DNA of 64,000 nucleotides from assembly GCF_900142465.1 (NCBI RefSeq), contig NZ_FRAX01000003.1:1-64000 (forward strand). Direction: 5' to 3'. The stretch's first letter is position 1. Each line of letters begins with the position of its first letter. Both the position numbers and the translations under genes were made by a program. Below are positions 26,369 through 42,114 of this stretch, piece by piece. Source of the DNA: Fibrobacter sp. UWH6 (GTDB lineage Bacteria; Fibrobacterota; Fibrobacteria; Fibrobacterales; Fibrobacteraceae). The notes below the pieces were generated by a model. The model worked only from the letters and a program-made list of their open reading frames with translations, had not been told where the DNA came from and ran no database searches.

Positions 26369-27628
26369 TTACTTGGCCTCGGCGACGCCTGCGGGAATGT
26401 GTTCAGCGCCTTCGGCGGCCATGTTCTTGTCCATCTGAGTGCGGGTCAATGCATTCACCGCATCGGTCAGGCGATCGATAGCCTTGATCAGCTCATCCAT
26501 CTTGGCATCGCTTGCACCACCTGCAACGGCTGCGGCAGCCTGGGCCTTTACATCAGCAGCGGTGGCAACAGGCGCAGCCTTAACAGGAACCTTGCCCAGC
26601 CAGATATCCGGCCAACGGTCGTTACCGGAATGGTAAGTGATACGGGTAGCAGATTCTACCGGTTCACCAATCTTCCACATATAAAGTTCGTAGTCGAACA
26701 TGTCGTGGTCATGGCCCTTATCGGTAGCACCCCACACCAGCCACTTCCCGTCAGGGGAAATTCTGGGGAAGTATTCATGACTGCGACGACCCGGCAAATC
26801 CATCAGACGAACATTCTTGGGTATACCGAAGAAGCCAACCTTTTCAACCTGTTTGCCATCCTTGGCAGAGAACCACAAAATTTCGCTAGGAGCGGCAGTA
26901 CCGCCATTACCCGTAGGATTCACGCGATAAAGCTTTGAACCGTCAAAATTCCAGTCAATCTGGCAACCGTCACCGGACTTGGTCCAGCCACCCTTTTCCA
27001 GATTCCAGACGCCAGTTTCACGCATGGAACCGCGAAGAGTAATAGCCAGATGCTTTCCATCAGGACTCATATTCGGTTCCTGAAGAATTACGCCAGACTT
27101 GTCAAAAGCGACTTCGCCGTCAAGGATCATAGTTTCTGCCTTGGAAGCCAAATCCATGGTAAAGACCTTGCCTGCACGACTAAACACAATAGACTTTCCA
27201 TCAGGGCGCCACGTACCCCAGGTCGCATTCTCAACCACCTTATGGGCATCACTTCCATCCAGATTTACCATCCAGAGGTCCCACTTTTCGGGGTAGTTGG
27301 CATCGTTTTCGGGAACCCAACCGCCCTTGCTGCGGTTAAAGAGCACCTTGGATCCATCGGGGGAAATTCTGGGGAACCAGTCCACATTATCACTAGCAGT
27401 CAGGGCATGAGCGCCAGTTCCGTCGGCATTCATAAGCCAGATATCGTGATGAGAATTTGCTCGACTTGTAGACCAGGCGATTATACCTTCCACCTTGCCT
27501 TTCAAGGCGTCCAAAGCCTTCTGTTCATCGGCGGTGGGGTCAACGGCAGCTCCGGTAGGAGCCCCCTGCTGGGCAAAAGCCATAGCAGTTGCAAACAGAC
27601 TGGGCAATACAAACTTCATTGCTTTCAT
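26369..27628 (-). CDS. Exported TolB-like beta-propeller protein
   Basis: 419 residues from MKAMKFVLPSLF; GAGGA lies four bases before this ATG, and the longer frame adds an unlikely leader. Signal peptide ends at AMAFAQQ. Successive propeller (PD40/WD40-like) strands are seen: SHHDIWLMNADGTG, PRISPDGSKVLFNRS, WDLWMVNLDGSD, GTWRPDGKSIVFSR, EPNMSPDGKHLAIT, FPRISPDGKWLVWG. The last 75 residues are Ala-rich and probably form a coiled coil (MDELIKAIDRLTDAVNAL). Periplasmic scaffold or sensor is likely; no enzyme motif is visible. Divergent from the GH5 gene across a 217-base gap. Confidence 0.85.
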   Translation of the reverse strand: MKAMKFVLPSLFATAMAFAQQGAPTGAAVDPTADEQKALDALKGKVEGIIAWSTSRANSHHDIWLMNADGTGAHALTASDNVDWFPRISPDGSKVLFNRSKGGWVPENDANYPEKWDLWMVNLDGSDAHKVVENATWGTWRPDGKSIVFSRAGKVFTMDLASKAETMILDGEVAFDKSGVILQEPNMSPDGKHLAITLRGSMRETGVWNLEKGGWTKSGDGCQIDWNFDGSKLYRVNPTGNGGTAAPSEILWFSAKDGKQVEKVGFFGIPKNVRLMDLPGRRSHEYFPRISPDGKWLVWGATDKGHDHDMFDYELYMWKIGEPVESATRITYHSGNDRWPDIWLGKVPVKAAPVATAADVKAQAAAAVAGGASDAKMDELIKAIDRLTDAVNALTRTQMDKNMAAEGAEHIPAGVAEAK

Positions 27629-27845
27629 AAAATCCTCAATTCGCGCCTTATACTTTTCTCTCAAAAGATAGCAACACAACCTTATTTTCTAAAAAAAATC
27701 AGCATTTTATACCCGACATTCCCCATTTTTAAGGTCAAAAACTTGATGAGAAACACAATCGGTTCCATCCGTATACATAAATCACTTACAATTAATCGCA
27801 AATTAAACTTTTGAATTTATTTTAGTACAAAAAAAGGTGTGCTAT

Positions 27846-29219
27846 ATGAAGATGTTTTCTATTCCCGCTCTCGCCTGCGCCATGACCCTGGGTTTTGGCC
27901 TGGCATCCGCTCAGACAATCACCCCCACCCGCGTGGGTCCCGTTAGTCAGTACGGCCAGCTCATCACCGGTAAGAATTCTGCTGGACAGGGCCGCATTTA
28001 CGGATCCTGCGAAGGCGTCAAGGACGGTGCCGAAGTACAGGTTCGCGGCATGAGCCTTTACTGGAGTATGGTCGCGAAGTCTACCGAATTCTGGACTCCC
28101 GAAGGTATCGCCACTATGGTCAACGACATGAACGTCCAGATTGTCCGTGCCGCCATGGGTACAACCAACGAAGACTGGTGGGGATGTAAGGACGGAACGG
28201 AAAGTTGCGGCAACGACAAGTCCAAGCACATTACCGGCTATGCAACCGATGCCGAATTCCAGACCAATCTTATGAACACCGTGGTAGAAGCAGCCATCAA
28301 GAACGACATCTATGTCGTTATCGACTGGCATTCCCATCAGGCTCACGAAGAAGTGGACAACGCAACAAAATTCTTCACAGAAATGGCCCAGAAGTGGGGC
28401 CAGTATGACCACGTCATTTTCGAACTTTACAACGAGCCCAAGGAAACATCCTGGGGCGTGATCAAGGACTACGCAGACAAGGTCGTTTCCGCCATCCGTC
28501 AACATTCCGACAACCTGATTCTTGTGGGCAACAGAAAGTATGACCAAAACCCGCAGGAAGCCATCAATAACGAAGTAACCGGCGAAAACATCGCCTACAC
28601 CTTCCACTATTACGCCAATTCCCATTGTTGGGAAGGTCAGACAAGCTGGGGTGACCCCTGCGAAGGCGCCAATGCCCAGCAGGCAATCAACGCCGGTCTG
28701 TCCGTATTCGTGTCTGAATGGGGAACCGCCGACGCAAACGGCGGCGGCAATCCCGATACCGGCCGCAACACCAGCTGGCAGAATTGGATGAATCAGAATA
28801 AACTTTCCTGGGCAAACTGGAGTGCCTCCAAGGTTGAAGAAGGTACCGCCGCATTCAGCAGCGGATCCAACAGGAACAGCCTGCAGTACACCACCTCCGG
28901 TCAAATGGTCAAGGAATATCTGTCAACCAATCCCACCACTTACACCAGGTGCGCCACCGCCCCCATTCCGGAACCCAATCCGGAAGAAGCAATCCATGGT
29001 TTGCACAGCGCAAACTTTGACGTAACCTTCTCAGGCAAGGCATTGAACGTTTCCGGTGCTACCGCCAACGTTGAAATCTTTACCGCAAAGGGTGACAAGC
29101 TGATGGACATCAACAACGTGCAGGGCGAACTTTCCCTTGCCGCATTCCCTGCAGGTAAGTACCTGGTTCGCGTAAAGTCTGGATCCGTTTCCAAGATGAA
29201 GGCAATCAGCATCAAGTAA
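27846..29219 (+). CDS. Secreted GH5 endoglucanase (cellulase)
   Basis: 457 residues from the ATG at 27846 (AAGGTG six bases upstream). Signal peptide to LASAQ (about 22). The GH5 barrel covers about 30-345: acid/base Glu 197 in ELYNEPKE, nucleophile Glu 291 in VFVSEWGTAD, with IVRAAMG, VVIDWHSH and YTFHYYANSH as substrate-site strands. This resembles subfamily-2 endoglucanases. After a Pro linker (PIPEPNPEE) the last 80 residues form a sandwich ending in AGKYLVRVKSGSVSKMKAISIK-type basic strands, likely the export/surface domain shared with other Fibrobacter enzymes. It cleaves internal beta-1,4-glucan bonds outside the cell. Confidence 0.95.
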   Translation: MKMFSIPALACAMTLGFGLASAQTITPTRVGPVSQYGQLITGKNSAGQGRIYGSCEGVKDGAEVQVRGMSLYWSMVAKSTEFWTPEGIATMVNDMNVQIVRAAMGTTNEDWWGCKDGTESCGNDKSKHITGYATDAEFQTNLMNTVVEAAIKNDIYVVIDWHSHQAHEEVDNATKFFTEMAQKWGQYDHVIFELYNEPKETSWGVIKDYADKVVSAIRQHSDNLILVGNRKYDQNPQEAINNEVTGENIAYTFHYYANSHCWEGQTSWGDPCEGANAQQAINAGLSVFVSEWGTADANGGGNPDTGRNTSWQNWMNQNKLSWANWSASKVEEGTAAFSSGSNRNSLQYTTSGQMVKEYLSTNPTTYTRCATAPIPEPNPEEAIHGLHSANFDVTFSGKALNVSGATANVEIFTAKGDKLMDINNVQGELSLAAFPAGKYLVRVKSGSVSKMKAISIK

Positions 29220-29334: not shown

Positions 29335-30744
29335 TTAGTTGACGCGATCTAGTACTGCAAAGTACTCATCGTTATAAACGCAAGTCCACCGACCCGACTG
29401 AATCAAGGAATTAATCAGCTTTTCCCAACGGGCGTAATATCGCAAGGGAAGAACGGCCCTATCTATATTATGAATTTGCGCATGAGTTACAAACTCCTGG
29501 GGATTTTCGGCAAAGTTTAGATACTGCTGAAAAAAATCCGCTGACTTTAAAATAAAGCGTCCGTCGATGTACGTTGAATCCGCAGGATTTATAAAGGCTA
29601 GATACCCTCCAGCACGGTCATCATTAAACAATCTTCCCAAATGAGGATGCATCGACATCCACTGTGCCGCCAACACAGGCACACGCTGATACGAAATCAT
29701 CGAGCAATCGTACGTTGTTAGAGAACGGCACCAAAGCCCTGCGACAAACATCAATGCCGCACACAGAATGCCCCATACGACTTGCCGCCCATGGGCGGTC
29801 ATTCTCTTTATCCACAGATTCACTCCGGCAGTCACCACAACCACACTGTAGATGAACACGGGCAGGAACAGCACGAAATTCCGTTCAGCGGTCAAAGCGA
29901 GAACCGAAACCACAAGCAGGCCAAAGCGATACTTAAAAGAACTCCGTAGGCTAATCGCAATTCCCGCCAGCGACATCAAGATTACAAGCGCAGAAGTTCC
30001 CGCAGATTCTCCGGCAAGAAGAATCTTGAAGGGTGACCTGTTCTCGGCAATTTCACTTGCAAAAATAGAGGCGGATTCCGTAAGCCCTAAAAGCCGGTCA
30101 AGAAGTCCAAACGGATACAGGAAAAGCCGGAGTCCTTCAGCATGAAGAAGTGGCATCAAGAACATTGCTATTACAAAGGCAATCCATGGAGAACGCCACC
30201 AGCACTTAACCCTGGAAACAAGAACATAGAATGCAAAGAGAGGGCCGAGAATGTACAATCCCTGGCATTTGCACCATAGCCACTGTACCAAGAGAACCAG
30301 CAGCGACACCATCATTTTCTTTTTCAAGGCCCAGGCAGAATCAAAAACTTTTTCAAGGAGATTCCAATACAGTCCTAGAAATACAAGACTGAATACAACA
30401 GGACGGATTTCAAACTGATAACGGAAAACAAAAAGTAAAATGGCGAAGCACACCGTCACCAGCCAACTTAAGGTTTTATAGCAAGGGCGGAGGAAAAGCC
30501 AAAATACCAAGCCCCAAAGCAAGGACTTTGCAAATACAAGCAAGGGGGCTCCACCTAGACCATAGACAAAACCCGTAACGGCCTGAAAGTATTCATGTAC
30601 ATTTACGACAGGTTCACGAACAGGAGTCCACGTAACCACCCATTCTCGCGAACAGGCCAGGTGCCACCAGATATCAGTATCCGTTAACGGGAATAGTGCA
30701 ACCAGAATTGCCGTCAAACAGATAAATGAAAGCATCCTAGGCAA
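29335..30744 (-). CDS. Polytopic membrane protein, GT-C-like
   Basis: 469 residues from a TTG at 30744 (GGAG five bases before it); an ATG at 30735 is the alternative. About ten membrane helices. The first luminal loop carries FPLTDTDIWWHLACSREW, a pattern seen in GT-C-type membrane glycosyltransferases and related proteins (Asp before WWHL). A soluble C-terminal part includes NDDRAGGYLAFINPADSTYIDGR, an ending frequent in the same family. Hence possibly a lipid-linked-sugar-dependent transferase, but no activity can be assigned. The start is two bases from the stop of the SUMF1-like gene, making it the last gene of the 39.1-29.3 kb unit. Confidence 0.7.
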   Translation of the reverse strand: MPRMLSFICLTAILVALFPLTDTDIWWHLACSREWVVTWTPVREPVVNVHEYFQAVTGFVYGLGGAPLLVFAKSLLWGLVFWLFLRPCYKTLSWLVTVCFAILLFVFRYQFEIRPVVFSLVFLGLYWNLLEKVFDSAWALKKKMMVSLLVLLVQWLWCKCQGLYILGPLFAFYVLVSRVKCWWRSPWIAFVIAMFLMPLLHAEGLRLFLYPFGLLDRLLGLTESASIFASEIAENRSPFKILLAGESAGTSALVILMSLAGIAISLRSSFKYRFGLLVVSVLALTAERNFVLFLPVFIYSVVVVTAGVNLWIKRMTAHGRQVVWGILCAALMFVAGLWCRSLTTYDCSMISYQRVPVLAAQWMSMHPHLGRLFNDDRAGGYLAFINPADSTYIDGRFILKSADFFQQYLNFAENPQEFVTHAQIHNIDRAVLPLRYYARWEKLINSLIQSGRWTCVYNDEYFAVLDRVN

Positions 30745-30746
30745 GA

Positions 30747-33488
30747 CTACTCCAAGGTCTTGAGCAAGGAATCAATACGGCTAGTAATCCGCATAGCCCC
30801 ATAATAGCAGAGGTGGTCTGCATCAGAAGCCATGTCATCATCGTAGTCGTGGTTTCCCATCTTATTTTCATCCATCATCACGAAATTCGGGTACTTTTCG
30901 CTCAGCGCCTCAATCTTCTTGATAAGGCTCTTGGCCTTACTGCGACGCAAGCCGTAGCGTCCGTAAGCGCCTGTTTTCTTGTATGCCGGATTCTGCGGGA
31001 ACAAAACGCCAACCACATAGATATCACGTTTCTTAGCTTCCTTGATAATGGAAACTAACGTATTAAAGCTACTGTCGAGCAATGCGGGATGATCATCTAA
31101 ATATGTGGAGTCAAACAGGACCTCGGGATTCTTGCCCCAGGATTTGCATTTCGCCTTGCAGTAACGTCCATAATCCACCTTATAATCTGAACCGGACAAC
31201 ACACCAGGTCCGTCTTCAGTATATTCCGCAAGACCTTCAGGATATCCATCCTTCCAATAATCGTGATTTTCATCGTACACATAACCAGGATAGTTCTTGT
31301 AATAAGAGTCAAAGAAGTTATCACCGTCAGCACCATCGACCTTATGCCAGAAATCAATATCCAGCGACAGGACGATATATTTCATGTTCTTCACATGGTT
31401 GAACACATACTTGTGCAGCAAATCCCTAATGGTATAAATGGAGCTTGGCGTCTGCGCAATATTGATAGAAAAGAAATCATCTTTCATCTTGTTCGGAGAC
31501 ACACCATCCAAAGGTCTAGACGAGCCAACAATAACAACCTCGGCGGAATCCCTATATTTCCAGATCAGTTCCATCTTATAGCGCATCAGAAGCGCACTTT
31601 GACTGTCGCTAGGTTTCATATAGACACCCGCGCTATCGGGATCAAGGACAGATTCGTTTTCCAATTTTATCGGTTGCTGAATCCAGAAACTGGGATGCCA
31701 CAACTCATCACTTTCGGCCACATCGATAACGCTACTGTCAGAAAGGTTTACCAGCACGATCTTAGGATGAGCATTGTTGGAATTGGTAACGGTAGCCACA
31801 ATCAGGTTAGAACATTCATTAGGATTGCGATTCTGAACCCACTCGCTATGGTCAAAAGAAAATCCTTCGGGAGCCTTTACGGATTGAATGAGCTTGCCCG
31901 TACTATCGGCCACAAGAATACGTTCGTGGGTCTTGTAATCATCGCCAACAAATTCCTTGCCAGTCTTTCCACCGAAATCCAGGAACAAAGTCCTCTTGCA
32001 AACATCATGGGATAGCGACACGTTGCAGGCCTGTTCACCATTATACCAGACCGTATCCGCCCCACCCACACGAGCTCTAAGCAGGCGGGCCCCCGTCACA
32101 GCAAACTTATTGTTGTTGCTGACGCCTCCATGATAGGCTCCGTTAAAGAGTTTCTTCGGAGTTCCAAAACGGTTATTCGAGAAAGTTACCTGCCAAGTGC
32201 TTTTTTTCTCAAAGTCAGATTCGTTCTTATTATTACCAGCATCGGATACATAAACGATTACGGTATCTCCGTTATCCAGAACTCGCCATCTGGGAATTGC
32301 GGCATGATCGCTATCCAGCTTATAACGTTTATAAGTTTCAAGGTTTCTAACAAAAAGGTTAGACTTTCCACTTACGCCTTCCAATCCTGTACAATAGGCG
32401 ACATATCGACCGTCAGGAGAAATTTCCGGATGATAGACCGAAACGGAATCATCAAACTCATAAGCATTCAAGAAGCCGTTAGAATAATCCACATAGGCGA
32501 GATTTCCCGTCATATCGTCTCTAAAGGCAAGCTTTCCCTTATAACTTTTTGAAAGGCGGTATATGGTGTTATAGTCAATAACGGAACCTACGCGATTGCA
32601 ACTAATGGTACCATCACTGCTCAACCATACCGCAGAAAGGAAGGGACCATAGACAAGTCGGAAGCCCACATAATCGGCCTTCGTTGAAGATGTTACGGTA
32701 TAAACGTCACCCCTGCTGTAGACATGCATGGACTTGGGAGAATTCTGATAGCTCCCCCCCTTGATAATGCGTTCACCAAGGGAGCCGCCGTTCAGCGCCC
32801 CCACAAAGTTATACACTGTAGTATCGGCAAATTTTCCCAGCCAGTCGTTCACCCATTCCGCAACGTTACCGGCCAGATCACACACATTCAAATCATCGCC
32901 GGTAGTGCAGACTTCATGAACTTCATAATCAGAATTGTCGCTATTCCAGCTTTTCTTCGGGAGCCAATTTGTCTTTGCGGCAAAAGCCCATTCCGCTTCA
33001 GTGGGCAAACGGAAGCCCACATTTTCCATTTTATAGACGAAGCCTTCCAGGTTAGTGCAGTTTCCGTCGGAATCAAAAGTCATTCCCGTATAGGAATAAA
33101 CCGTATCCAACTTCTCTTGCTTACTCAAGGCATTCGCATATAGAACCGCATCATAGAAGGTCACGTTCGTCACAGGCAAATTTTCTTTTGAACAGGAAAC
33201 GAACTTCCCCCACTTTTCGCCCTTGGCCAACTTCTTGTAATCGCCACAAGTAACCTCATGCTTATCCATGTAGAAACTGTAGTTGAAAAGGACCCGCATC
33301 TTGGTCTTTTCATTTTCCTTGGCATCTTCATCATCGGTTCCAAGGAAGTTGTCAAATTCTGCGGCAGGATCAAAATACACCATTCCCTTTGGCATATAGC
33401 CTTCTTCCGTAGAGCTGCTAGCAGAATCCGAACAGCCCCAGAAAAGCAAGACCATCATGCACAAGGCAAGGCTAAATACACGTTTCAT
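30747..33488 (-). CDS. Lipoprotein fusing SUMF1-like, beta-propeller and SGNH-like domains (copy 2)
   Basis: 913 residues. Lipoprotein signal to FWGCSD (Cys 19). Region 30-285 is a formylglycine-generating-enzyme/SUMF1-like fold: MDKHEVTCGDYKKL, LPVTNVTFYDAVLYAN, GFRLPTEAEWAFAA, VCDLAGNVAEWVNDWLG, ADYVGFRLVYG. Region about 300-590 has propeller strands (YHPEISPDGRYVAYC). The last 300 residues resemble an SGNH hydrolase: VVIVGSSRPLDGVSP for the nucleophile block and DADHLCYYGAMR for the Asp/His block. The start overlaps the stop of copy 1 as TAATG, so the two are translationally coupled. Envelope-located; a modified surface glycan or protein is the likely target but this is inference. Confidence 0.8.
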   Translation of the reverse strand: MKRVFSLALCMMVLLFWGCSDSASSSTEEGYMPKGMVYFDPAAEFDNFLGTDDEDAKENEKTKMRVLFNYSFYMDKHEVTCGDYKKLAKGEKWGKFVSCSKENLPVTNVTFYDAVLYANALSKQEKLDTVYSYTGMTFDSDGNCTNLEGFVYKMENVGFRLPTEAEWAFAAKTNWLPKKSWNSDNSDYEVHEVCTTGDDLNVCDLAGNVAEWVNDWLGKFADTTVYNFVGALNGGSLGERIIKGGSYQNSPKSMHVYSRGDVYTVTSSTKADYVGFRLVYGPFLSAVWLSSDGTISCNRVGSVIDYNTIYRLSKSYKGKLAFRDDMTGNLAYVDYSNGFLNAYEFDDSVSVYHPEISPDGRYVAYCTGLEGVSGKSNLFVRNLETYKRYKLDSDHAAIPRWRVLDNGDTVIVYVSDAGNNKNESDFEKKSTWQVTFSNNRFGTPKKLFNGAYHGGVSNNNKFAVTGARLLRARVGGADTVWYNGEQACNVSLSHDVCKRTLFLDFGGKTGKEFVGDDYKTHERILVADSTGKLIQSVKAPEGFSFDHSEWVQNRNPNECSNLIVATVTNSNNAHPKIVLVNLSDSSVIDVAESDELWHPSFWIQQPIKLENESVLDPDSAGVYMKPSDSQSALLMRYKMELIWKYRDSAEVVIVGSSRPLDGVSPNKMKDDFFSINIAQTPSSIYTIRDLLHKYVFNHVKNMKYIVLSLDIDFWHKVDGADGDNFFDSYYKNYPGYVYDENHDYWKDGYPEGLAEYTEDGPGVLSGSDYKVDYGRYCKAKCKSWGKNPEVLFDSTYLDDHPALLDSSFNTLVSIIKEAKKRDIYVVGVLFPQNPAYKKTGAYGRYGLRRSKAKSLIKKIEALSEKYPNFVMMDENKMGNHDYDDDMASDADHLCYYGAMRITSRIDSLLKTLE

Positions 33489-36298
33489 TACTTAAGTCCT
33501 TTCAACACATCAACAAGGCGGGTTGTTATGTATTCGGCACCCACACTACTTAAATGGTCACGATTATAGGCCATTTCATCAGCGTAGTTATGGTAACCCA
33601 TCTTGTATTCATCCATCAGGATAAAATGTTTCTTTCGCTTGGCCAAATCATTCAGCCACTGGATTTTTTCAACAGCGATACTGCGTTGTAGGCCATAAAC
33701 ACCAAAGCTACCGGTATTGGCATATTGGGGTGCCTGCGGGAAAATTATACCTATAAGATAAATGCCTTTTTCTGCAGCAATATCAGTCAGAGCTTCCACT
33801 TCCTGCAAGCAACTATCCAGGAATTCCAGCTGTTTATCGGTAAAGACAGAGTCAAACAGGACGTCAACCGGATCAGAATTCCAGCCGCGAGAAGCAGACC
33901 AAATATTTCCGCGTTCACTAAACTGTTCCACGAGTTCATCTTCTGCAGGATAGGCTTCACGAACCGCATCAACAAAGCCTTCGGGAATTCCATCTTCCCA
34001 ATGATTGTGGTTTTCGTCATAAATATACCCAGGCACAAAATCTCTAATCAAAGCCCAGTGATCTTCGACACCACGCCAGTTATCCAAATCGACAGAGAAT
34101 ACAATAGCCTTCAAACGGTCTGCATGCTTCAAGGCGTAGTTTCGGATAAAATTCAAGTCTCGATGACCGTCAATACCCGACACAGCCACATTCAGCATAT
34201 TCCATTCCGGATAGAGGTCGGGATTCAAGCCCATTTCACTGCGAGAACTTCCGACCATCAGGACTTCTGTACGGTCTAACTGTTCCCAAAACTTCTGAAT
34301 CTTGATTCTATAGCGAGCCTGTTCAAGATTATGGCCATCTCCGAGGTAGACGCCAGCACTATCCCAATCAATCGTAGACTCTCCTCCTGCGTGACCGCTG
34401 TGCTTAATCCACAGACTAGGATGCCAAAGGTCATCACCTTCAATCAGTTCAACCACGCTACTGTCAGCAAGATTAATCAAGGCAATTCTAACATGAGAAC
34501 CTTCCAAATCGGTAAGAGTAGCTACAGCAAAATTTTCCTTGTCGCTCCAATTGTTTCTTAGAGCCCATTCGCTATGATCAAAGGTATAGTTTTCGGGAGC
34601 GGCAACAGACTGTACCAGTTTGCCAGACTCATCGGCAATCAGCAGGCGCTGGTGAGTTCTGTATTTTTCGCCTACAAAGTCAGCACCAGTCTTTCCACCA
34701 AAATCAAGGAATAAGGTTCTTGCAGAGCCATCTTTAGACAAGGAAACGTTACAGGCCTGTTCACCATTGTACCATACTTCATCCTTTGCGGAAGAAGCCA
34801 GGGTTTCCCCCTTACGGGCAACTTTTGCACGGAGCAAACGAGCACCGGTTACAGCCAACTTTTCGTTAACACCGCCATGATAGGCTCCATCAAACAGTTT
34901 CTTGGGAGTACCGAACTTGCCGTTTGCAAAAGAAACCTGCCATGTAGAAGTTGCTTTAAAGGAATCATCATTTTTATTGTTGCCAGCATCCGTCACATAT
35001 ACAATCGTCGTATCCCCATCTTCGGTAACACGCCAGCGAGGTATAGCGGCACTTTCAACATCAAGTTTAACCAGACCGAGACCAGACACATCTAAATTAC
35101 GCACATAAAGTTCAGAACGGCCGCTAACTCCTTCCGACTTGGTACAGAAGGCCACCTTGGAACCATCAGGGGAAATATCCGGATGATAAACCGACAGTGT
35201 ATCATGGATTTCCCTAACGGTAGAACGGCCACTGGCATAATTCACAAAGCTCAAGTTTCCAGATACATTGTTTCGGAAAGCAAGCTTTGCAGAAAATGTT
35301 CCCACCAGGGACTGCATGGTAGACGAGCTAACTAGAGAAAGTACGCGGCTCCCGTTGGCGGAGCCATCAGAAGACAACCATGTTGCGTTGGCGATTTTAC
35401 CATAAGCCAGCCTAAATCCCACATAGTCCGCCCTAGTCGAAGAAGTCACCGTATAGATATCGCCACGGGAATACACATTCAAGGATGTTAAATCATTACG
35501 ATAGCTTCCACCCTTTACAACACGTTCACCAAGAGAGCCTCCATCAGGAGCTCCCGTATAATTTAAAATCGTAGTATCCTTGAAATAACCAAGCCAGTCA
35601 TTCACCCACTCCATGGCATTACCTGCCATATCGCAAAGCATCAATTCTTCTTTAACGGCTTTCCTAGACAGGGTATTTCCTGTCTTTTTCACGGAACACA
35701 CAGGATGCAGTACATAGTCAGAATTACCGGCATTCCAAGACAAATCAGGATTCCAACCCGTAGAGGCCACCAGGACCCATTCCGCTTCCGTTGGCAAACG
35801 GTAGCCATCGGTTTCTGGCCTGAAGACAAAACCCTCTAAATCAATGCAATGTCCTTCTGTGTCAAAAACAGCCTTCGTGTAGGAATAGGCTGTATCCCTA
35901 TGATCCTTGACGCTTTTGCCATTGGCAAAGAGAACCGCATCATAGAAGGTAACATTGGTTGCAGGCAGACTATCGTTGTCGCAAGGAATCTGCACCAGTT
36001 TCAGTTCGTTAAATTCCTTACAGGTTACCTCATGTCGTCCCACAGAAAAATTGTAATCGAATTCCACCTTCATCACGGGGCGTTCATTGACCTTACCATA
36101 TTCCGAGCCCAAGAAGGTTGAGTGCCCTGCGGCAAGAATCCGGAGCATACCTTCGACAGAATCCCTATCCATTACAGGCTGAAAATACTCCGGCATCACA
36201 ATCTTCGCCTCCGGTTCAGAATCGGAGCACGAAAGAGAACAAAATACCATTCCCAAAGCAAAGAACGATGTCAAATATTTTTTGAGATGTTTAGGCAT
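33488..36298 (-). CDS. Lipoprotein fusing SUMF1-like, beta-propeller and SGNH-like domains (copy 1)
   Basis: 936 residues and collinear with copy 2 along its whole length. Signal peptide ends FCSLSCSDS. SUMF1-like region: VGRHEVTCKEFNEL, LPATNVTFYDAVLFAN, GYRLPTEAEWVLVA, CDMAGNAMEWVNDWLG, GSLGERVVKGGSYRND. Propeller: VYHPDISPDGSKVAFC. SGNH-like: VLMVGSSRSEMGLNP and NRDHLSSVGAEYITT. Catalytic cysteines of true formylglycine enzymes are not evident, so the first domain is more likely structural, as in SUMF1-like gliding and secretion lipoproteins. Tandem duplication with clear divergence suggests division of labour between two related surface targets. Confidence 0.8.
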   Translation of the reverse strand: MPKHLKKYLTSFFALGMVFCSLSCSDSEPEAKIVMPEYFQPVMDRDSVEGMLRILAAGHSTFLGSEYGKVNERPVMKVEFDYNFSVGRHEVTCKEFNELKLVQIPCDNDSLPATNVTFYDAVLFANGKSVKDHRDTAYSYTKAVFDTEGHCIDLEGFVFRPETDGYRLPTEAEWVLVASTGWNPDLSWNAGNSDYVLHPVCSVKKTGNTLSRKAVKEELMLCDMAGNAMEWVNDWLGYFKDTTILNYTGAPDGGSLGERVVKGGSYRNDLTSLNVYSRGDIYTVTSSTRADYVGFRLAYGKIANATWLSSDGSANGSRVLSLVSSSTMQSLVGTFSAKLAFRNNVSGNLSFVNYASGRSTVREIHDTLSVYHPDISPDGSKVAFCTKSEGVSGRSELYVRNLDVSGLGLVKLDVESAAIPRWRVTEDGDTTIVYVTDAGNNKNDDSFKATSTWQVSFANGKFGTPKKLFDGAYHGGVNEKLAVTGARLLRAKVARKGETLASSAKDEVWYNGEQACNVSLSKDGSARTLFLDFGGKTGADFVGEKYRTHQRLLIADESGKLVQSVAAPENYTFDHSEWALRNNWSDKENFAVATLTDLEGSHVRIALINLADSSVVELIEGDDLWHPSLWIKHSGHAGGESTIDWDSAGVYLGDGHNLEQARYRIKIQKFWEQLDRTEVLMVGSSRSEMGLNPDLYPEWNMLNVAVSGIDGHRDLNFIRNYALKHADRLKAIVFSVDLDNWRGVEDHWALIRDFVPGYIYDENHNHWEDGIPEGFVDAVREAYPAEDELVEQFSERGNIWSASRGWNSDPVDVLFDSVFTDKQLEFLDSCLQEVEALTDIAAEKGIYLIGIIFPQAPQYANTGSFGVYGLQRSIAVEKIQWLNDLAKRKKHFILMDEYKMGYHNYADEMAYNRDHLSSVGAEYITTRLVDVLKGLK

Positions 36299-36332
36299 AA
36301 ATAGTCCTGGTTAGACAACCAAATTTATAAAA

Positions 36333-37046
36333 TTAAAGACTATTCTTTGCAACCTGCTGGTTTACCTTTATGCCTTCATAATCAGGAAAAAACTGTTCTG
36401 CAACCCGATACCAAATCAGAGCGTGATGTACATCATCTTTTAAATACAGATTGCCCATGTTAAAGGCGGCAAGCCCCATGAACTGGGAGGATGTCAACGG
36501 TTTAAATTCAAAACCCGTCCATGGTCCAGACTTGTATTTTTCACGGTATTCGTCATCCGTGTAGGAATACCCCTGGCGATTAGGTTCCAGGTTTACTGAG
36601 CCATAGCGTAAAAAAACATGCCCCGGCAAGAGAATTGCAGAAAGATTGATTTCACGAGCCTCAGCCACCATCATGGCAAGCCAGGCCAATCCCATACAAC
36701 CCGAGGTTTTCGCATCAAGAACCTTCAACGGTAAAATGGAACCTTCCGATACCGCAGCCTCCCCCGCCCCGGCAAATTTTATATCCCAGAAATTCCAGAG
36801 CAATTTTTTTAGGGAACCTAAGGTATCACCCGAAGCTGCAAGGGAACTGTCGTAAAACGCAAGCCCCCTTCGCCAATCATCCGTAGAATCAGCGCAATCC
36901 ACAGAGCGACCCTCAAAGCCACAAGCCATTTCCAAGTAGCTAGGATTTCCACCCTGACCACCCCAAAGCCAATACAACCCAATACCCCCCAGAACAAACA
37001 AAGTTCCAGGAACAAACAGCTTAAAGATGTATTTCGACTTTTTCAT
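36333..37046 (-). CDS. Membrane-anchored transglutaminase-like protein
   Basis: 237 residues. One N-terminal membrane helix (about 8-28, LFVPGTLFVLGGIGLYWLW) leaves the rest outside the cytoplasm. The core has TSGCMGLAWLAMMVAEA and LLPGHVFLRYGSVNLEPNRQG, the Cys and His blocks of transglutaminase-like (SirB1-type) folds, with Cys, His and an acidic/Asn residue in the right order. The last 60 residues look like a TPR hairpin (FNMGNLYLKDDVHHALIWYRVAEQFFP). Thiol protease or amidotransferase-like activity is possible, or a non-catalytic scaffold. It is second in the five-gene unit, 34 bases before copy 1 of the SUMF1-SGNH gene. Confidence 0.7.
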   Translation of the reverse strand: MKKSKYIFKLFVPGTLFVLGGIGLYWLWGGQGGNPSYLEMACGFEGRSVDCADSTDDWRRGLAFYDSSLAASGDTLGSLKKLLWNFWDIKFAGAGEAAVSEGSILPLKVLDAKTSGCMGLAWLAMMVAEAREINLSAILLPGHVFLRYGSVNLEPNRQGYSYTDDEYREKYKSGPWTGFEFKPLTSSQFMGLAAFNMGNLYLKDDVHHALIWYRVAEQFFPDYEGIKVNQQVAKNSL

Positions 37047-37092
37047 ACGTTTTCACCCAACCGAAACGCATCGCCCGGAGCAAAACTAATCA

Positions 37093-39090
37093 TCACCGAA
37101 GCGCGTCCCACTCCATGGGGGATTGCCAGAGGTCTCTTGCTGTCATCATGTAGACAACGAGTCTCTTGCTTTGCATATCCTTCTTCATCTTCATCATACG
37201 GCTGCGCACGCCAGGGCCACCGCCCCAACTGGTAAGCACCTGTACATCCAAACCTGTTGCATAAGCCAGCAAGGAACCCGGTCCACCACTCTTCTGATCC
37301 ACACTTTCAAACACACCCGTAAAAGAATCCCCCATCAAAAGAATAGGAGCATTCTTACCACCCTTATAAGTTTCAGTTCCCTTATAAACCTTCATCACGT
37401 TCAAGGTATCCGCAGGATACTTTGCTTTTTCTGCATCCGGCAAATGAGCCACCAGATCACCTTCACGCAAGGTGGTCGTTTCCTGCAAATTCAGGGAACC
37501 AGGCTGAGCCCCCGTCTCTGCGTACCAGCTATACTGCGTCACGCGGCCGGCCAAAAGTTCCATGGCAGCAAGTTCACCCGGCAAGGCCCAGTGGGTATCG
37601 TAGCGCTGGTAGCTGAAATGAGGCGGTTCATCGCCTGCCTTTGCCGACATAAGTGCCGGATAAATATCCAGCACATCGATACCCGCTTCCAGAAGTTCCT
37701 GAGTAAAGGCTCGACCTTCAGGATTGACGCACAAGTCAGCAGCAGTCCCCGGCACAAGCTTTTCACCATAGATTTCTTCTTTCACCGGAACTGGAACAAC
37801 CAACAATTGGATACCAAGAGAATCCAGATACTGCTTCAATTCTACCATTCGGGGCAGCGGATTATGGAGAGAATCCTGGGCACTAATCTTGTCAGCCAGC
37901 AGATAATTTGCATTGCGACGGAACCAGAGGAAACCTCCCTCCACCTTCTTGCCGTTAGCATCTACTTCGGCCCAGGCATTCTGTTCCTTGGGCAGTTTCG
38001 CCATCTGTTCTGCCAGAGCCTTGCGGAATGTTGCGGTAGCTTCGTTCGCCGGGCAGGAACCCTTCACTTCATTCAAAGTTTCAAGGCGGAATGCAGACGT
38101 TGTATCCAAGTGACGTTCCACCGGAATCACTTCGCCGGAATTGGCCAGAGAATCAGCCACCTGCTTAGCTCGAATCGCCTCATCACTCATACGGAACGCA
38201 GGAACTTCAAAGCCGATCCACATAGGCGTGCCCATTGGATTGCCACGCATCACGGCAAAGGGTTTACCATTTTCCCAGGGAGCACCTGCCGTATGCGGTT
38301 CCAAATCTGTATTCAAGGTCGGATACCAGTAAGAAGACAAAGTGCGAGCCCAGTTCATGGCATCATCCGCATTCATCTCACCAGTTAGATAGTAATTCAG
38401 GATTTCAGCAGCCTCTCCAGTAGACTTGTACTTCAGCTTACCATAGAAAACACTGCGACCCGTCCAGAAAGCAGGCATCACCTCGACCCACCATTCCACA
38501 GAACCGTCACTCATGGGAACACCCCACATGCGATTCACATTCTGGAAGGCACGGAACACTTCAGGTTCGTCCCACTTGACCGCTTCCACGGAATTCAAAA
38601 TTACATTCAGGGAATCGTTACCCAACTGGGTATACATCAACTTGGCAAAAGGTTCCCAAGAAATGGGAGCACGTCCACCGACAACGGCCGGTTCATAAGC
38701 AGAAAGAGAATCCAGCATGGGGAACGGATAATCCTTCAGCTCGGCGGAAGCCATCTTACCAGTATAATTTTCAGGCTTTTCATCCTTACCGGCCCAACGG
38801 ATAGGATTGTTAAAATAGGCGGCAAAATCAAGGGCAGCCATGGTGGGCTTTTCCACCACACGAATCTGCTTGTCTGCAGAAACCACTTTCATTTCGAAAA
38901 CGGCAACCGGTGAAGAAGGAGGCGGCAGCGGAATGACAGGCGCAACCATTTCTGCAGAAGAATCAATTTCAGTCTTCTTATCGACCCCGGAATTACTTCC
39001 GGCACAAGACATCAAACCAAAAGAAAAAGCCGATGCAGCGAGAACGGCCCCGACCTTAAAACATTTAACGGTATAATTTTTCATATTCAT
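37093..39090 (-). CDS. AlgX/AlgJ-like SGNH-fold lipoprotein
   Basis: 665 residues. Lipoprotein signal ends FGLMSCAG. After a 300-residue unassigned N-terminal region, the C-terminal half matches the acetyltransferase fold of AlgX/AlgJ: VELKQYLDSLGIQLLVVPVP, the DxH block RYDTHWALPG (Asp 498, His 500), the nucleophile block LLMGDSFTGVF (Ser 589) and the closing YMMTARDLW. AlgX and AlgJ O-acetylate polysaccharide in the periplasm, receiving acetyl from an MBOAT protein. No MBOAT gene is next to it here. First gene of the minus-strand unit. The exact start (39090 or 39084) is uncertain because no binding site is well placed. Confidence 0.75.
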   Translation of the reverse strand: MNMKNYTVKCFKVGAVLAASAFSFGLMSCAGSNSGVDKKTEIDSSAEMVAPVIPLPPPSSPVAVFEMKVVSADKQIRVVEKPTMAALDFAAYFNNPIRWAGKDEKPENYTGKMASAELKDYPFPMLDSLSAYEPAVVGGRAPISWEPFAKLMYTQLGNDSLNVILNSVEAVKWDEPEVFRAFQNVNRMWGVPMSDGSVEWWVEVMPAFWTGRSVFYGKLKYKSTGEAAEILNYYLTGEMNADDAMNWARTLSSYWYPTLNTDLEPHTAGAPWENGKPFAVMRGNPMGTPMWIGFEVPAFRMSDEAIRAKQVADSLANSGEVIPVERHLDTTSAFRLETLNEVKGSCPANEATATFRKALAEQMAKLPKEQNAWAEVDANGKKVEGGFLWFRRNANYLLADKISAQDSLHNPLPRMVELKQYLDSLGIQLLVVPVPVKEEIYGEKLVPGTAADLCVNPEGRAFTQELLEAGIDVLDIYPALMSAKAGDEPPHFSYQRYDTHWALPGELAAMELLAGRVTQYSWYAETGAQPGSLNLQETTTLREGDLVAHLPDAEKAKYPADTLNVMKVYKGTETYKGGKNAPILLMGDSFTGVFESVDQKSGGPGSLLAYATGLDVQVLTSWGGGPGVRSRMMKMKKDMQSKRLVVYMMTARDLWQSPMEWDALR

Positions 39091-39144: not shown

Positions 39145-39193
39145 TTTCCTTTGGGTAACACATCAAACATATCCAAGTGTTACAGGAAAGGAA
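39145..39193 (+). promoter_or_regulatory. Two-tier hairpin in the TM2-gene leader
   Basis: TTCCTTT (39146-39152) pairs with AAAGGAA (39187-39193), then an internal loop of 2 by 3 bases, then GTAACAC (39155-39161) with GTGTTAC (39177-39183), apical loop 15 bases. It stands about 40 bases before the start codon, in the divergent gap with the AlgX-like gene. It could be an operator or a folded RNA leader. Confidence 0.45.
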
Positions 39194-39231
39194 CAATTTC
39201 TATATTTAACTCGGTAAATAAAGGAATGCTT

Positions 39232-39423
39232 ATGCCCGCACAAGGTGAACACAACAAGTGGATAGCTCTAGCCCTCTGTATCTTACTAGGCTATCTAGGA
39301 CTGCACCGTTTTTACGAAGGAAAAATCTGGACGGGAATCCTCTGGCTTTGCACTGGAGGTCTTTGCGGCGTAGGTATCGTCGTCGACGCAATCCTCATCG
39401 TCCTTAAACCGGAACACTACTAA
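39232..39423 (+). CDS. TM2-domain small membrane protein
   Basis: 63 residues from the ATG at 39232, six bases after AAAGGA; an ATG at 39226 touches the binding site, and a longer frame runs through a leader hairpin. The sequence is a complete TM2 domain: ALCILLGYLGLHRFYEGK (first helix with the GxxGLHRFY turn), a short loop and GILWLCTGGLCGVGIVVDAILI (second helix with Asp). TM2 proteins sit in the inner membrane; function is unknown. It precedes rdgB by 33 bases. Confidence 0.85.
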   Translation: MPAQGEHNKWIALALCILLGYLGLHRFYEGKIWTGILWLCTGGLCGVGIVVDAILIVLKPEHY

Positions 39424-40112: not shown

Positions 40113-40137
40113 GTGTTTTCAGCAGAAAACACTTTTG
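40113..40137 (+). terminator. rdgB terminator
   Basis: GTGTTTTC (40113-40120) and GAAAACAC (40125-40132) with AGCA loop, followed by TTTTG. Confidence 0.8.
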
Positions 40138-40203
40138 TGCAATTATTTCAGCAAAACAATCCTCGCTCTGTTTAATTTTATAGTCAAACATGAGGATTGG
40201 TTT

Positions 40204-42114
40204 ATGAATTTCAAAAAAAGTATCGCAAGATTCCTGACTGTTGCTGCGTTCTCTACTATAGCAGCCCAAAGTGCTGTGGCAGCAACAGTTCACCAGAACC
40301 AGATTGGCTTCTTGACCAAGGGACTCAAGCAAATTGCAGTCGTTGGCGCAGAAGGCATGGAAGTTACCTTCAAGGACGCTTCCGGTTCAAAGGCTCTGTC
40401 CGTAAAGGTTCCTGCAGCGGCACCTTGGGCACCCGCAGGCGATACAGCAGCCTCCCTTGTAGATTTTTCCGAACTTTCCAAGGCAGGCACCTACCAGGCC
40501 TACATTGGCGATGAAGCCGTAGGCTACCCCATTATTGTCAGCGATAACGCCTATGAGGCAATCGGCAAGGCCGCCCTCAAGTTCTTCTACTTCCAGCGTT
40601 CATCCACCGAACTGACCGAAGAATTCGCCGGCAAGTACGCCCGCGCAGCAGGCCACCCGGACACAGCTGTTCGATACCACGAATCCACAGGAATCATCGA
40701 CAACATCTCCACCTTTAATGGAGCCAAGGGATGGTATGACGCAGGTGACTACGGCAAATACATTGTCAACTCCGGCATCACAACCTACACCCTTCTTCAG
40801 CTTTACCGTCTGAACGAAGACTATTTCAAGTCCCTGAATTTGAACATTCCCGAAAGCAAGAACGACGTTCCCGACATTCTTGATGAAATCCGCTGGAACC
40901 TTGAATGGATGCTGACCATGCAGGATGTCGACGGCGGTATTTTCCACAAGTTGACCACCAAGAATTTCTGTGGTGAAATCATGCCCGAAAAAGACAAATC
41001 CGTCCGTTTCGCAATCGGCAAGAGCATCACCGCTACCTGGAACTTCGTAGCAGTCATGGCTCTCGCAGCAGACATCTACAAGCCTTATGACGAAGCTTTT
41101 GCAGAAAAGTGCGTTCGCGCCGCCGAAAAAGCTTACTACTGGGGTACACTGAATCCTAACGCAAAGTTTGTACAGCCCTCGGGCGTCGGCACCGGAACCT
41201 ATTCCGACAACTCCGCTACAGACGAACGAATCTGGGCCGCCGCCGAACTTTTCCGAATCAGCAAGAACGAAACCATCAAGGCAAAGTTCCAGGAAGTCCC
41301 CCTGTTCCATTCCAGAACGTCTCTGCCCACCTGGTCTACCACCTTTATGCTGACTTCCTACACCGTATCCACCAACCCCACCATTTTTGACAAGGCAGAT
41401 GTGGATTCTGCAAGAATTCAGGTTTTGGGTCTCGGAGACAAGATCGTTGACCTTTTGAATGATAACGGCTATGGCGTCGCCATGGACGGCAAGGATTTCA
41501 ACTGGGGTTCCAATAGCTTCGCTGCCAACAAGGGCATGGCCCTGATCTACTCCTACATCCTGACCAAGGAACAGAAGTATCTGGATGCTGCAGTAGGTCT
41601 GTTGGATTACCTCATGGGAAGAAACCCCCTGGATATGTCTTACCTGACTGGCTATGGCGTGAACCAGGTTATGCACCCCCACCATCGTCCCAGCACAGCT
41701 GACACCGTTGAAGCCCCCGTCCCCGGCATGCTTTCTGGCGGTCCCAACCCCGCCGCCACCGACATCAAGTCCTGCGGCAACGTAGACTACCGCGATGAAA
41801 GCGCTCCCGCCAAATCCTTCTACGACAACAAGTGCAGCTACGCCAGTAACGAAGTGGCTATCAACTGGAATGCCCCCTTCGCCTTCCTGGCCAACGGTCT
41901 CCAGGCAATTTCCTCTACTGGCAAGGTATTCGACGTCGAAAAAGCCTCTGCCGCCAACTTTGAAGTGAGCAGTATCGCCAGGAAACGCGAAATTTCCCCG
42001 AAAAACACAGTTGGCAGCCAGCTGATTGTTCGCAAGGGAAGCGTAAACATCAAAAAGACCGATGTTAACGGATCTACTCGCTACTTCAATCTCAAAGGAC
42101 GTCAAATCCGTTAA
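40204..42114 (+). CDS. Secreted GH9 cellulase
   Basis: 636 residues from the ATG at 40204 (GAGGA seven bases before); a longer frame would start inside the rdgB terminator region. Signal peptide to QSAVAA (about 26). N-terminal immunoglobulin-like domain (28-115: HQNQIGFLTKGLKQIAVV) as in GH9 theme-D enzymes. Catalytic domain about 118-575: nucleophilic water base in GWYDAGDYGKY (Asp 179, Asp 182), substrate-site His in HPHHRPS, acid Glu 550 in YASNEVAINWN. The C-terminal 55 residues end in GSTRYFNLKGRQIR, a short basic tail typical for exported Fibrobacter enzymes. It hydrolyses beta-1,4-glucan. Confidence 0.95.
   Translation: MNFKKSIARFLTVAAFSTIAAQSAVAATVHQNQIGFLTKGLKQIAVVGAEGMEVTFKDASGSKALSVKVPAAAPWAPAGDTAASLVDFSELSKAGTYQAYIGDEAVGYPIIVSDNAYEAIGKAALKFFYFQRSSTELTEEFAGKYARAAGHPDTAVRYHESTGIIDNISTFNGAKGWYDAGDYGKYIVNSGITTYTLLQLYRLNEDYFKSLNLNIPESKNDVPDILDEIRWNLEWMLTMQDVDGGIFHKLTTKNFCGEIMPEKDKSVRFAIGKSITATWNFVAVMALAADIYKPYDEAFAEKCVRAAEKAYYWGTLNPNAKFVQPSGVGTGTYSDNSATDERIWAAAELFRISKNETIKAKFQEVPLFHSRTSLPTWSTTFMLTSYTVSTNPTIFDKADVDSARIQVLGLGDKIVDLLNDNGYGVAMDGKDFNWGSNSFAANKGMALIYSYILTKEQKYLDAAVGLLDYLMGRNPLDMSYLTGYGVNQVMHPHHRPSTADTVEAPVPGMLSGGPNPAATDIKSCGNVDYRDESAPAKSFYDNKCSYASNEVAINWNAPFAFLANGLQAISSTGKVFDVEKASAANFEVSSIARKREISPKNTVGSQLIVRKGSVNIKKTDVNGSTRYFNLKGRQIR

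Follow-up and report, generated by a model that had tools for sequence, protein, structure and literature searches.

In the alginate O-acetylation system (AlgI/AlgJ/AlgX/AlgF), AlgJ and AlgX are both required and AlgX acetylates the polymer (PMC4148444), and in Campylobacter jejuni PatA the tyrosine in a C-terminal FXYXXF motif accepts an acetyl group and carries it to an SGNH partner (PMC12148441). Acetylxylan esterases occur among SGNH proteins (PMC9487903), and the bacterial UDP-apiose synthases (bUAS) of Geminicoccus and Xanthomonas were reported to be without a conserved operon (PMC5607165). Here, we analyzed a five-gene unit of Fibrobacter sp. UWH6 (assembly GCF_900142465.1) lying in the first 64,000 nt of contig NZ_FRAX01000003.1 (positions 1 to 64,000, the whole stretch being termed the window) that codes for an AlgX-like SGNH protein, a transglutaminase-like protein, two TIGR02171 lipoproteins, and a polytopic membrane protein. 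We interpret the unit as the surface-side portion of an alginate-type system, dispersed in the genome, that would O-acetylate an exported glycan bearing a pentose, a reading that we consider moderately probable as a whole and well supported for its O-acetylation part. The best-supported element is the proposed acetyl path from the tyrosine of an MBOAT protein through an AlgJ-like to the AlgX-like protein and the glycan.

Organization and conservation of the unit

The five open reading frames (ORFs) at 29335-39090 were all on the minus strand with, in order, gaps of 46 and 34 bases, an overlap of 1 base, and a gap of 2 bases, in exact agreement with the coordinates of an earlier note on this DNA that had proposed a five-gene envelope unit. 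Conservation was surveyed in 167 genomes of the phylum. The membrane-protein gene set comprised all 98 genomes with a match at E 0.001, and of the 105 genomes matching the AlgX-like gene at that threshold the 95 with a best row above 100 bits were kept, the ten dropped genomes having at most 67 bits over the SGNH part, as expected of the AlgJ-like paralogue; the other searches used E-value cut-offs of 1e-60, 1e-100, and 1e-40 that were fixed ahead of the results. Both genes were present in 93 genomes, 61 of them from the genus (including the window's own). In 58 of these 61 the genes were on one contig and one strand with the AlgX-like gene first, 3.5-19.2 kb apart, and on different contigs in the remaining three, so that the comparison of gene order suggested in the earlier note gave a result far from chance. 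The order was also kept in 10 of 11 other family members (different contigs in one) and in six of 14 more distant members of the phylum (different contigs in seven and 169 kb apart in one), while the two genes were adjacent on opposite strands in all seven other members of the class. The congeneric order was AlgX-like, transglutaminase-like, one to at least six tandem TIGR02171 copies, and membrane protein, the copy number accounting for the variable distance between the outer genes. The unit was also found in Fibrobacter sp. metagenome-assembled genomes from horse feces (locus L162) and water buffalo rumen (L164).

In sister lineages, genes for the MBOAT, AlgJ-like, AlgX-like, transglutaminase, membrane, and propeller proteins formed one operon, as in L100, where a small secreted protein gene is followed by MBOAT, AlgJ-like, AlgX-like, transglutaminase-TPR, membrane-protein, and PD40 propeller genes. 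The gene after the membrane-protein gene in these operons is orthologous to a PD40/TolB-like propeller gene of the window that an opposite-strand GH5 gene separates from the membrane-protein gene. Compared with 15 homologues from related loci, mostly located in this gene cluster, its product showed 47-94% identity, and the L106 homologue carries PF07676. The five genes of the earlier proposal were borne out, but the unit is larger, taking in this propeller gene and partners elsewhere in the chromosome.

Proposed acetyl transfer proteins and their partners outside the window

The AlgX-like protein matched PF16822 over residues 399-629 of 665 with 72.3 bits (curated cut-off 26.5), and a profile of 15 homologues matched AlgJ (4o8v, E 9e-14) and AlgX (7ula, E 1e-11), confirming its initial label. 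The triad D498/H500/S589 was found in at least 90% of 34 homologues in the permuted SGNH order, in which D-x-H precedes the G-x-S block. A conserved N-terminal region of approximately 300 aa has no family, and the SGNH domain forms the C-terminal end (the match stops at residue 629 of 665), leaving no AlgX-type carbohydrate-binding module (CBM) behind it; hence, the protein was not filed as AlgX itself. The transglutaminase-like label also held (PF13369, 25.9 bits versus a cut-off of 23.5), with Cys117, His143, and Asn152 in at least 90% of 28 homologues and TPR repeats on the homologues of sister lineages (L100 and L276).

No MBOAT gene had been noted near the unit, which is true within the window; the genome, however, encodes two MBOATs, both off the window's contig, and the orthology of one of them rules out MBOAT absence as an argument against O-acetylation. 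Eleven of the 19 loci L100-L118 contained an operon-type MBOAT (PF03062), with a labeled AlgJ-like gene beside it in ten of the 11 and AlgX-like genes following. The MBOAT on contig C6 (L150:8760-10178) shared 49-56% identity with seven operon MBOATs, compared to 33% with the second MBOAT of the same genome. A C-terminal FLYFQF was found in the C6 protein and all 11 operon MBOATs, and as the second MBOAT ends in FIYFQF the partner is picked by orthology and not by the motif alone. The AlgJ-like gene on contig C16 likewise had 35-39% identity to operon AlgJ-like genes and 26% to the window's AlgX-like gene. Thus, of the glycan decoration proposed in the earlier note, AlgX-type O-acetylation stood, with MBOAT co-operonic in sister lineages, while the GT-C identity given to the membrane protein was not confirmed.

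Many genomes encode a small secreted protein with no family assignment immediately upstream of the operon-type MBOAT (L150:8215-8727 and L100:8962-9414), including genomes in which the MBOAT has moved away; this protein is a possible AlgF-like accessory.

TIGR02171 lipoproteins

Both fusion proteins are full-length members of the NCBIfam family TIGR02171 (cut-off 544.35 bits). The combination of SUMF1-like, propeller, and SGNH domains, initially considered unrecognized, therefore belongs to a named family and a novel architecture was ruled out; the NCBIfam library assigns the family no function. Two more full-length copies are present in the genome (C3:120637 and C15:323), and F. succinogenes S85 has eleven. 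The N-terminal cysteine of the fusion proteins was kept in all 86 homologues; the earlier note had predicted three lipoproteins in the unit, and the AlgX-like protein is likewise a predicted exported lipoprotein.

The SUMF1-like and propeller assignments were confirmed by PF03781 (96.8 and 76.5 bits versus a cut-off of 23.3) and by a structure model of copy 2 (913 aa, 8 sequences, mean predicted local distance difference test (pLDDT) score 66.9) in which residues 301-605 matched TolB with Z 22, the fold search informing on these residues only since the propeller filled the match list. A common origin with the separate propeller protein of the unit beyond one blade was not supported (hhalign probability 19%). 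The SUMF1-like part matched formylglycine-generating enzyme (FGE), PorK, and T. denticola variable protein 1 in PDB profile searches. FGE (SUMF1) has a catalytic cysteine pair after a GGS motif, and in residues 262-300 of the 86 homologues no cysteine position was kept in more than half, suggesting that TIGR02171 proteins are probably not formylglycine-generating enzymes and that this part is likely a non-catalytic FGE-like fold.

In the C-terminal part, Ser685 (block I), His915 (block V), Gly683, and Asn703 were invariant in the 86 homologues, Asp914 was present in 82, and position 912 was Asn in 54 and Asp in 29. Pfam matches among 25 members were all weak, several being to SGNH families (DltD in two, best E 0.06, and DUF1574, Lipase_GDSL, and SGNH in one each). 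Of the three SGNH proteins first proposed for the unit, the AlgX-like protein is therefore certain by family, while motifs and weak family matches suggest the fold in the two fusion proteins; a relationship of this part to AlgX was not supported (hhalign probability 1%).

A quick tree of the 86 proteins (SH-aLRT supports only) tended to group copies from different genomes by array position, such as the first copies of L119, L120, L121, L122, and L125, indicating that the paralogues are old, and placed the window's two copies in different clades, by which copy 2 is an anciently diverged paralogue of copy 1. Alternatively, the AlgX-like/transglutaminase/membrane-protein core would be one system and the TIGR02171 array an independently inserted island of surface proteins. 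The variable copy number, the copies elsewhere, and two congeners with strong TIGR02171 matches but without the core agree with such an island, which we nevertheless rate as unlikely: gene-by-gene reading of congeneric units places the array after the transglutaminase-like gene and before the membrane-protein gene, the unit ends stay together in 58 of 61 congeners, paralogues tend to hold their array place, and TIGR02171 genes also adjoin the UDP-pentose synthase-like gene described below (L281) and the membrane-protein gene (L280).

Two further TIGR02171 contexts were observed. On contig C3 of the same genome (L036:6703-10385), a full-length gene starts 3 bases past a murB-like gene (PF02873), which suggests an operon with a cell-wall enzyme. 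A Chitinispirillaceae contig (L165:1476-6920) encodes a TIGR02171-like protein of 1006 aa with an intact D-x-x-H and, after it, an 801-aa protein whose C-terminus likewise looks SGNH-like.

Putative pentose donor genes and co-occurrence

A short-chain dehydrogenase/reductase (SDR) gene and a GT2 gene adjoin the operon in L102. The best PDB match of the SDR was plant UDP-apiose/xylose synthase (362 bits versus 236 for the next enzyme), and the GT2 matched polyprenyl- and dolichyl-phosphate sugar synthases with scores under their cut-offs. Orthologues of both are adjacent on contig C6 of the window's genome (L272), as in nine of ten loci examined (L272-L281); in the tenth (L277), the synthase-like gene lies beside the membrane-protein gene instead. 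The pair was followed by a transglutaminase-like gene, with the GT2 gene adjoining it, in L276 and L278, and the synthase-like gene was beside the AlgX-like gene in L111, L113, and L114. The ring-opening Cys100 of the plant enzyme was kept in 13 of 14 aligned synthase-like proteins, the fourteenth being out of frame there, and Cys140 was Ser in all 14. UXS and ArnA are reported to have Ala and Ser at these two places (PMC12820599), and the residues accordingly do not fix the product. Two families of approximately 370-390 aa without Pfam or NCBIfam matches also adjoin the pair (L273:5311-7581, L279:5097-7365, and L280:3910-6207).

Presence and absence agreed with that of the membrane-protein gene in 160 of the 167 genomes for the AlgX-like gene, 152 for AlgJ-like, 159 for MBOAT, and 160 for the synthase-like gene. 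All five genes were present in 83 genomes and absent together from 62, leaving 22 mixed genomes, several of which are incomplete. Orthologues of the second MBOAT, used as control, agreed in 109 of 167 (p = 4e-4), with 60 of 80 within the genus (p = 1) and 49 of 87 outside (p = 0.8), compared to p values of at most 1e-11 both within and outside the genus for the linked genes. By genus, 21 had both membrane-protein and synthase-like genes, none had the membrane-protein gene only, one had the synthase-like gene only, and 18 had neither. Families f1, f4, and f7 each mix genera with and without the set, requiring more than one gain or loss. This linkage and co-distribution suggest that the membrane protein uses a polyprenyl-linked pentose and, indirectly, sustain the lipid-linked sugar of the earlier note without its GT-C component.

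The MBOAT and AlgJ/AlgX-like proteins could instead act as PatA/PatB on peptidoglycan with the remaining genes as bystanders. The MBOAT-SGNH chemistry and FXYXXF motif are the same as in PatA and a TIGR02171 copy directly follows the murB-like gene, but the whole set is jointly absent from the 62 genomes mentioned above, is linked to and co-occurs with a synthase-like/GT2 pair that peptidoglycan does not need, and includes two AlgX-family proteins as the alginate system has, making cell-wall acetylation improbable. That the SGNH proteins are plant-fibre surface esterases removing acetyl groups from xylan or similar polymers alongside neighboring cellulases is also quite unlikely, as the GH5-like and cellobiosidase-like neighbors, the rumen-type genus, and the acetylxylan esterases reported among SGNH proteins (PMC9487903) would agree with it, but the genes outside the unit vary between relatives and the permuted AlgX/AlgJ order of the AlgX-like protein, together with its MBOAT operon in sister lineages, fits transfer and not removal of acetyl.

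Fifteen congeners had none of the AlgX-like, AlgJ-like, MBOAT, UDP-pentose, and membrane-protein genes (G065, G066, G073, G074, G086, G088, G106-G109, G114, G115, G124, G127, and G132), several of them being more than 90% complete; they may represent one clade with a different surface.

The membrane protein and weight of the evidence

The membrane protein has at least seven hydrophobic segments, an acidic D22-x-D24 adjoining the first of them (both residues in at least 90% of 30 homologues), and a conserved DGR motif close to the C-terminus. GT-C proteins carry an acidic D/E-x-D in the first extracytoplasmic loop.

Several results weigh against an O-acetylation system that uses a lipid-linked pentose. 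The GT-C label of the earlier note was not confirmed: no Pfam family was found among 18 homologues, the profile had no match in the PDB, comparison with PMT_2 proteins gave an hhalign probability of 2.5%, and the structure model (pLDDT 46.5) was too poor for fold assignment, its fold search having no match at E <0.001 and being uninformative. The GT-C fold thus failed every test made, the tests being weak, and structure prediction, which the earlier note had proposed for each protein, was helpful for the TIGR02171 propeller but not here. The partners are widely separated in the window's genome, congeners G066 and G132 keep strong TIGR02171 matches without membrane-protein, AlgX-like, MBOAT, and synthase-like genes, and outside the Fibrobacteraceae TIGR02171 was not seen within the operon. 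Furthermore, the co-occurrence p values ignore relatedness, and one or two loss events may account for the absences within the genus. From the genomes we read the order of the genes, their families and catalytic residues, the sister-lineage operon, and co-distribution; from these we infer all activities, the sugar identity, the acceptor, and the GT-C step.

Features of the window and neighboring genes

Table 1. Protein-coding features of the unit in the Fibrobacter sp. UWH6 window.
Feature	Coordinates	Strand	Evidence
AlgX/AlgJ-family SGNH protein, 665 aa, predicted exported lipoprotein	37093..39090	-	PF16822
Transglutaminase-like protein, 237 aa, N-terminal hydrophobic segment	36333..37046	-	PF13369
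TIGR02171 lipoprotein copy 1, SUMF1-like, TolB-type propeller, and putative SGNH-like C-terminal domain	33488..36298	-	NCBIfam, 1171.6 bits
TIGR02171 lipoprotein copy 2, architecture as copy 1	30747..33488	-	NCBIfam, 1186.7 bits
Polytopic membrane protein, 469 aa, labeled GT-C-like, fold unconfirmed	29335..30744	-	Hydrophobic segments, motifs
PD40/TolB-like propeller protein, outside the five-gene unit	26369..27679	-	Homologues in related loci

Genes flanking the unit varied between relatives. In the window, a GH5-like secreted protein (27837-29219, plus strand) is convergent with the unit and has a C-terminus resembling a type IX secretion system tail that scored 20.8 of 23 bits, below the cut-off, and a cellobiosidase-like gene lies at 40135-42114. 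Upstream of the unit, a small ORF (39151-39423, plus strand) encodes a GYLGLHRFY-type double hydrophobic hairpin, which we take to be TM2-domain-like, with homologues in the corresponding position of L122 and L125. Scanning the window for tRNA genes and Rfam families gave no matches, and promoter and terminator scans gave signals no higher than shuffled sequences.

Proposed pathway and significance

In the favored O-acetylation system, the UDP-apiose/xylose-synthase-like enzyme would make a UDP-pentose in the cytoplasm and the GT2 would move the pentose to polyprenyl phosphate, from which the membrane protein would pass it to the exported glycan in the periplasm. The off-window MBOAT would load acetyl from acetyl-CoA onto the tyrosine of its FLYFQF motif, and the acetyl group would move via the off-window AlgJ-like SGNH protein to the AlgX-like protein, which would acetylate the glycan. 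From their architecture and place, the TIGR02171 proteins may be surface glycan-binding and acyl-handling lipoproteins that bind and modify the glycan or an attached protein at the cell surface, the SUMF1-like and propeller parts serving for binding and the SGNH-like part being catalytic; the tandem, position-conserved paralogues suggest different acceptor specificities. A broader possibility, offered tentatively, is a pathway throughout the Fibrobacterota for an O-acetylated surface glycan bearing apiose (or another lipid-linked pentose), combining the UDP-apiose-synthase-like enzyme, a polyprenyl-phosphate pentosyltransferase, a new membrane glycosyltransferase family, and MBOAT/AlgJ/AlgX O-acetylation, with TIGR02171 proteins as diversified surface enzymes on that glycan.

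F. succinogenes S85 was reportedly called lipopolysaccharide-lacking in the title of a 2001 article by Vinogradov and, together with the plant-fibre life of Fibrobacter, this makes the cell coat a question of interest. Openly licensed PMC literature (TIGR02171 and related terms, with subscription papers outside the scope) gave no description of this system. The findings connect a defined chemistry with an orphan family that most of the genus carries, giving genomic context to a large family of surface proteins, and they name off-locus partner genes and predict a bacterial rare-sugar donor pathway with a conserved gene arrangement.

Comparison with known systems

The Fibrobacter system resembles alginate O-acetylation in having an MBOAT with two AlgX-family SGNH proteins, of which the AlgJ-like has an N-terminal hydrophobic segment and the AlgX-like is predicted to be exported, and in a permuted D-x-H before G-D-S with the catalytic triad retained. 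It differs in that no alginate genes were seen, the AlgX-like protein has no room for the C-terminal CBM of AlgX, and the components are dispersed and associated with TIGR02171, transglutaminase-like, and UDP-pentose genes. PatA/PatB and DltB/DltX/DltD likewise share the FXYXXF shuttle motif on the MBOAT and an SGNH partner, whereas the partners of the window's unit are neither PatB nor DltD, the TIGR02171 SGNH part resembling DltD weakly in two of 25 members. With plant and bacterial UDP-apiose synthases, the off-window synthase-like protein shares its best PDB match (6h0n, 263 bits versus at most 190 for ArnA) and the ring-opening Cys100, differing from UDP-apiose/xylose synthase by a serine at Cys140 as in UXS and ArnA, and in contrast to bUAS the gene has a conserved arrangement in the Fibrobacterota. 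Finally, the window's fusion proteins are full-length TIGR02171 members far above the family cut-off, and what sets them apart is that the array sits here inside a putative glycan O-acetylation unit.

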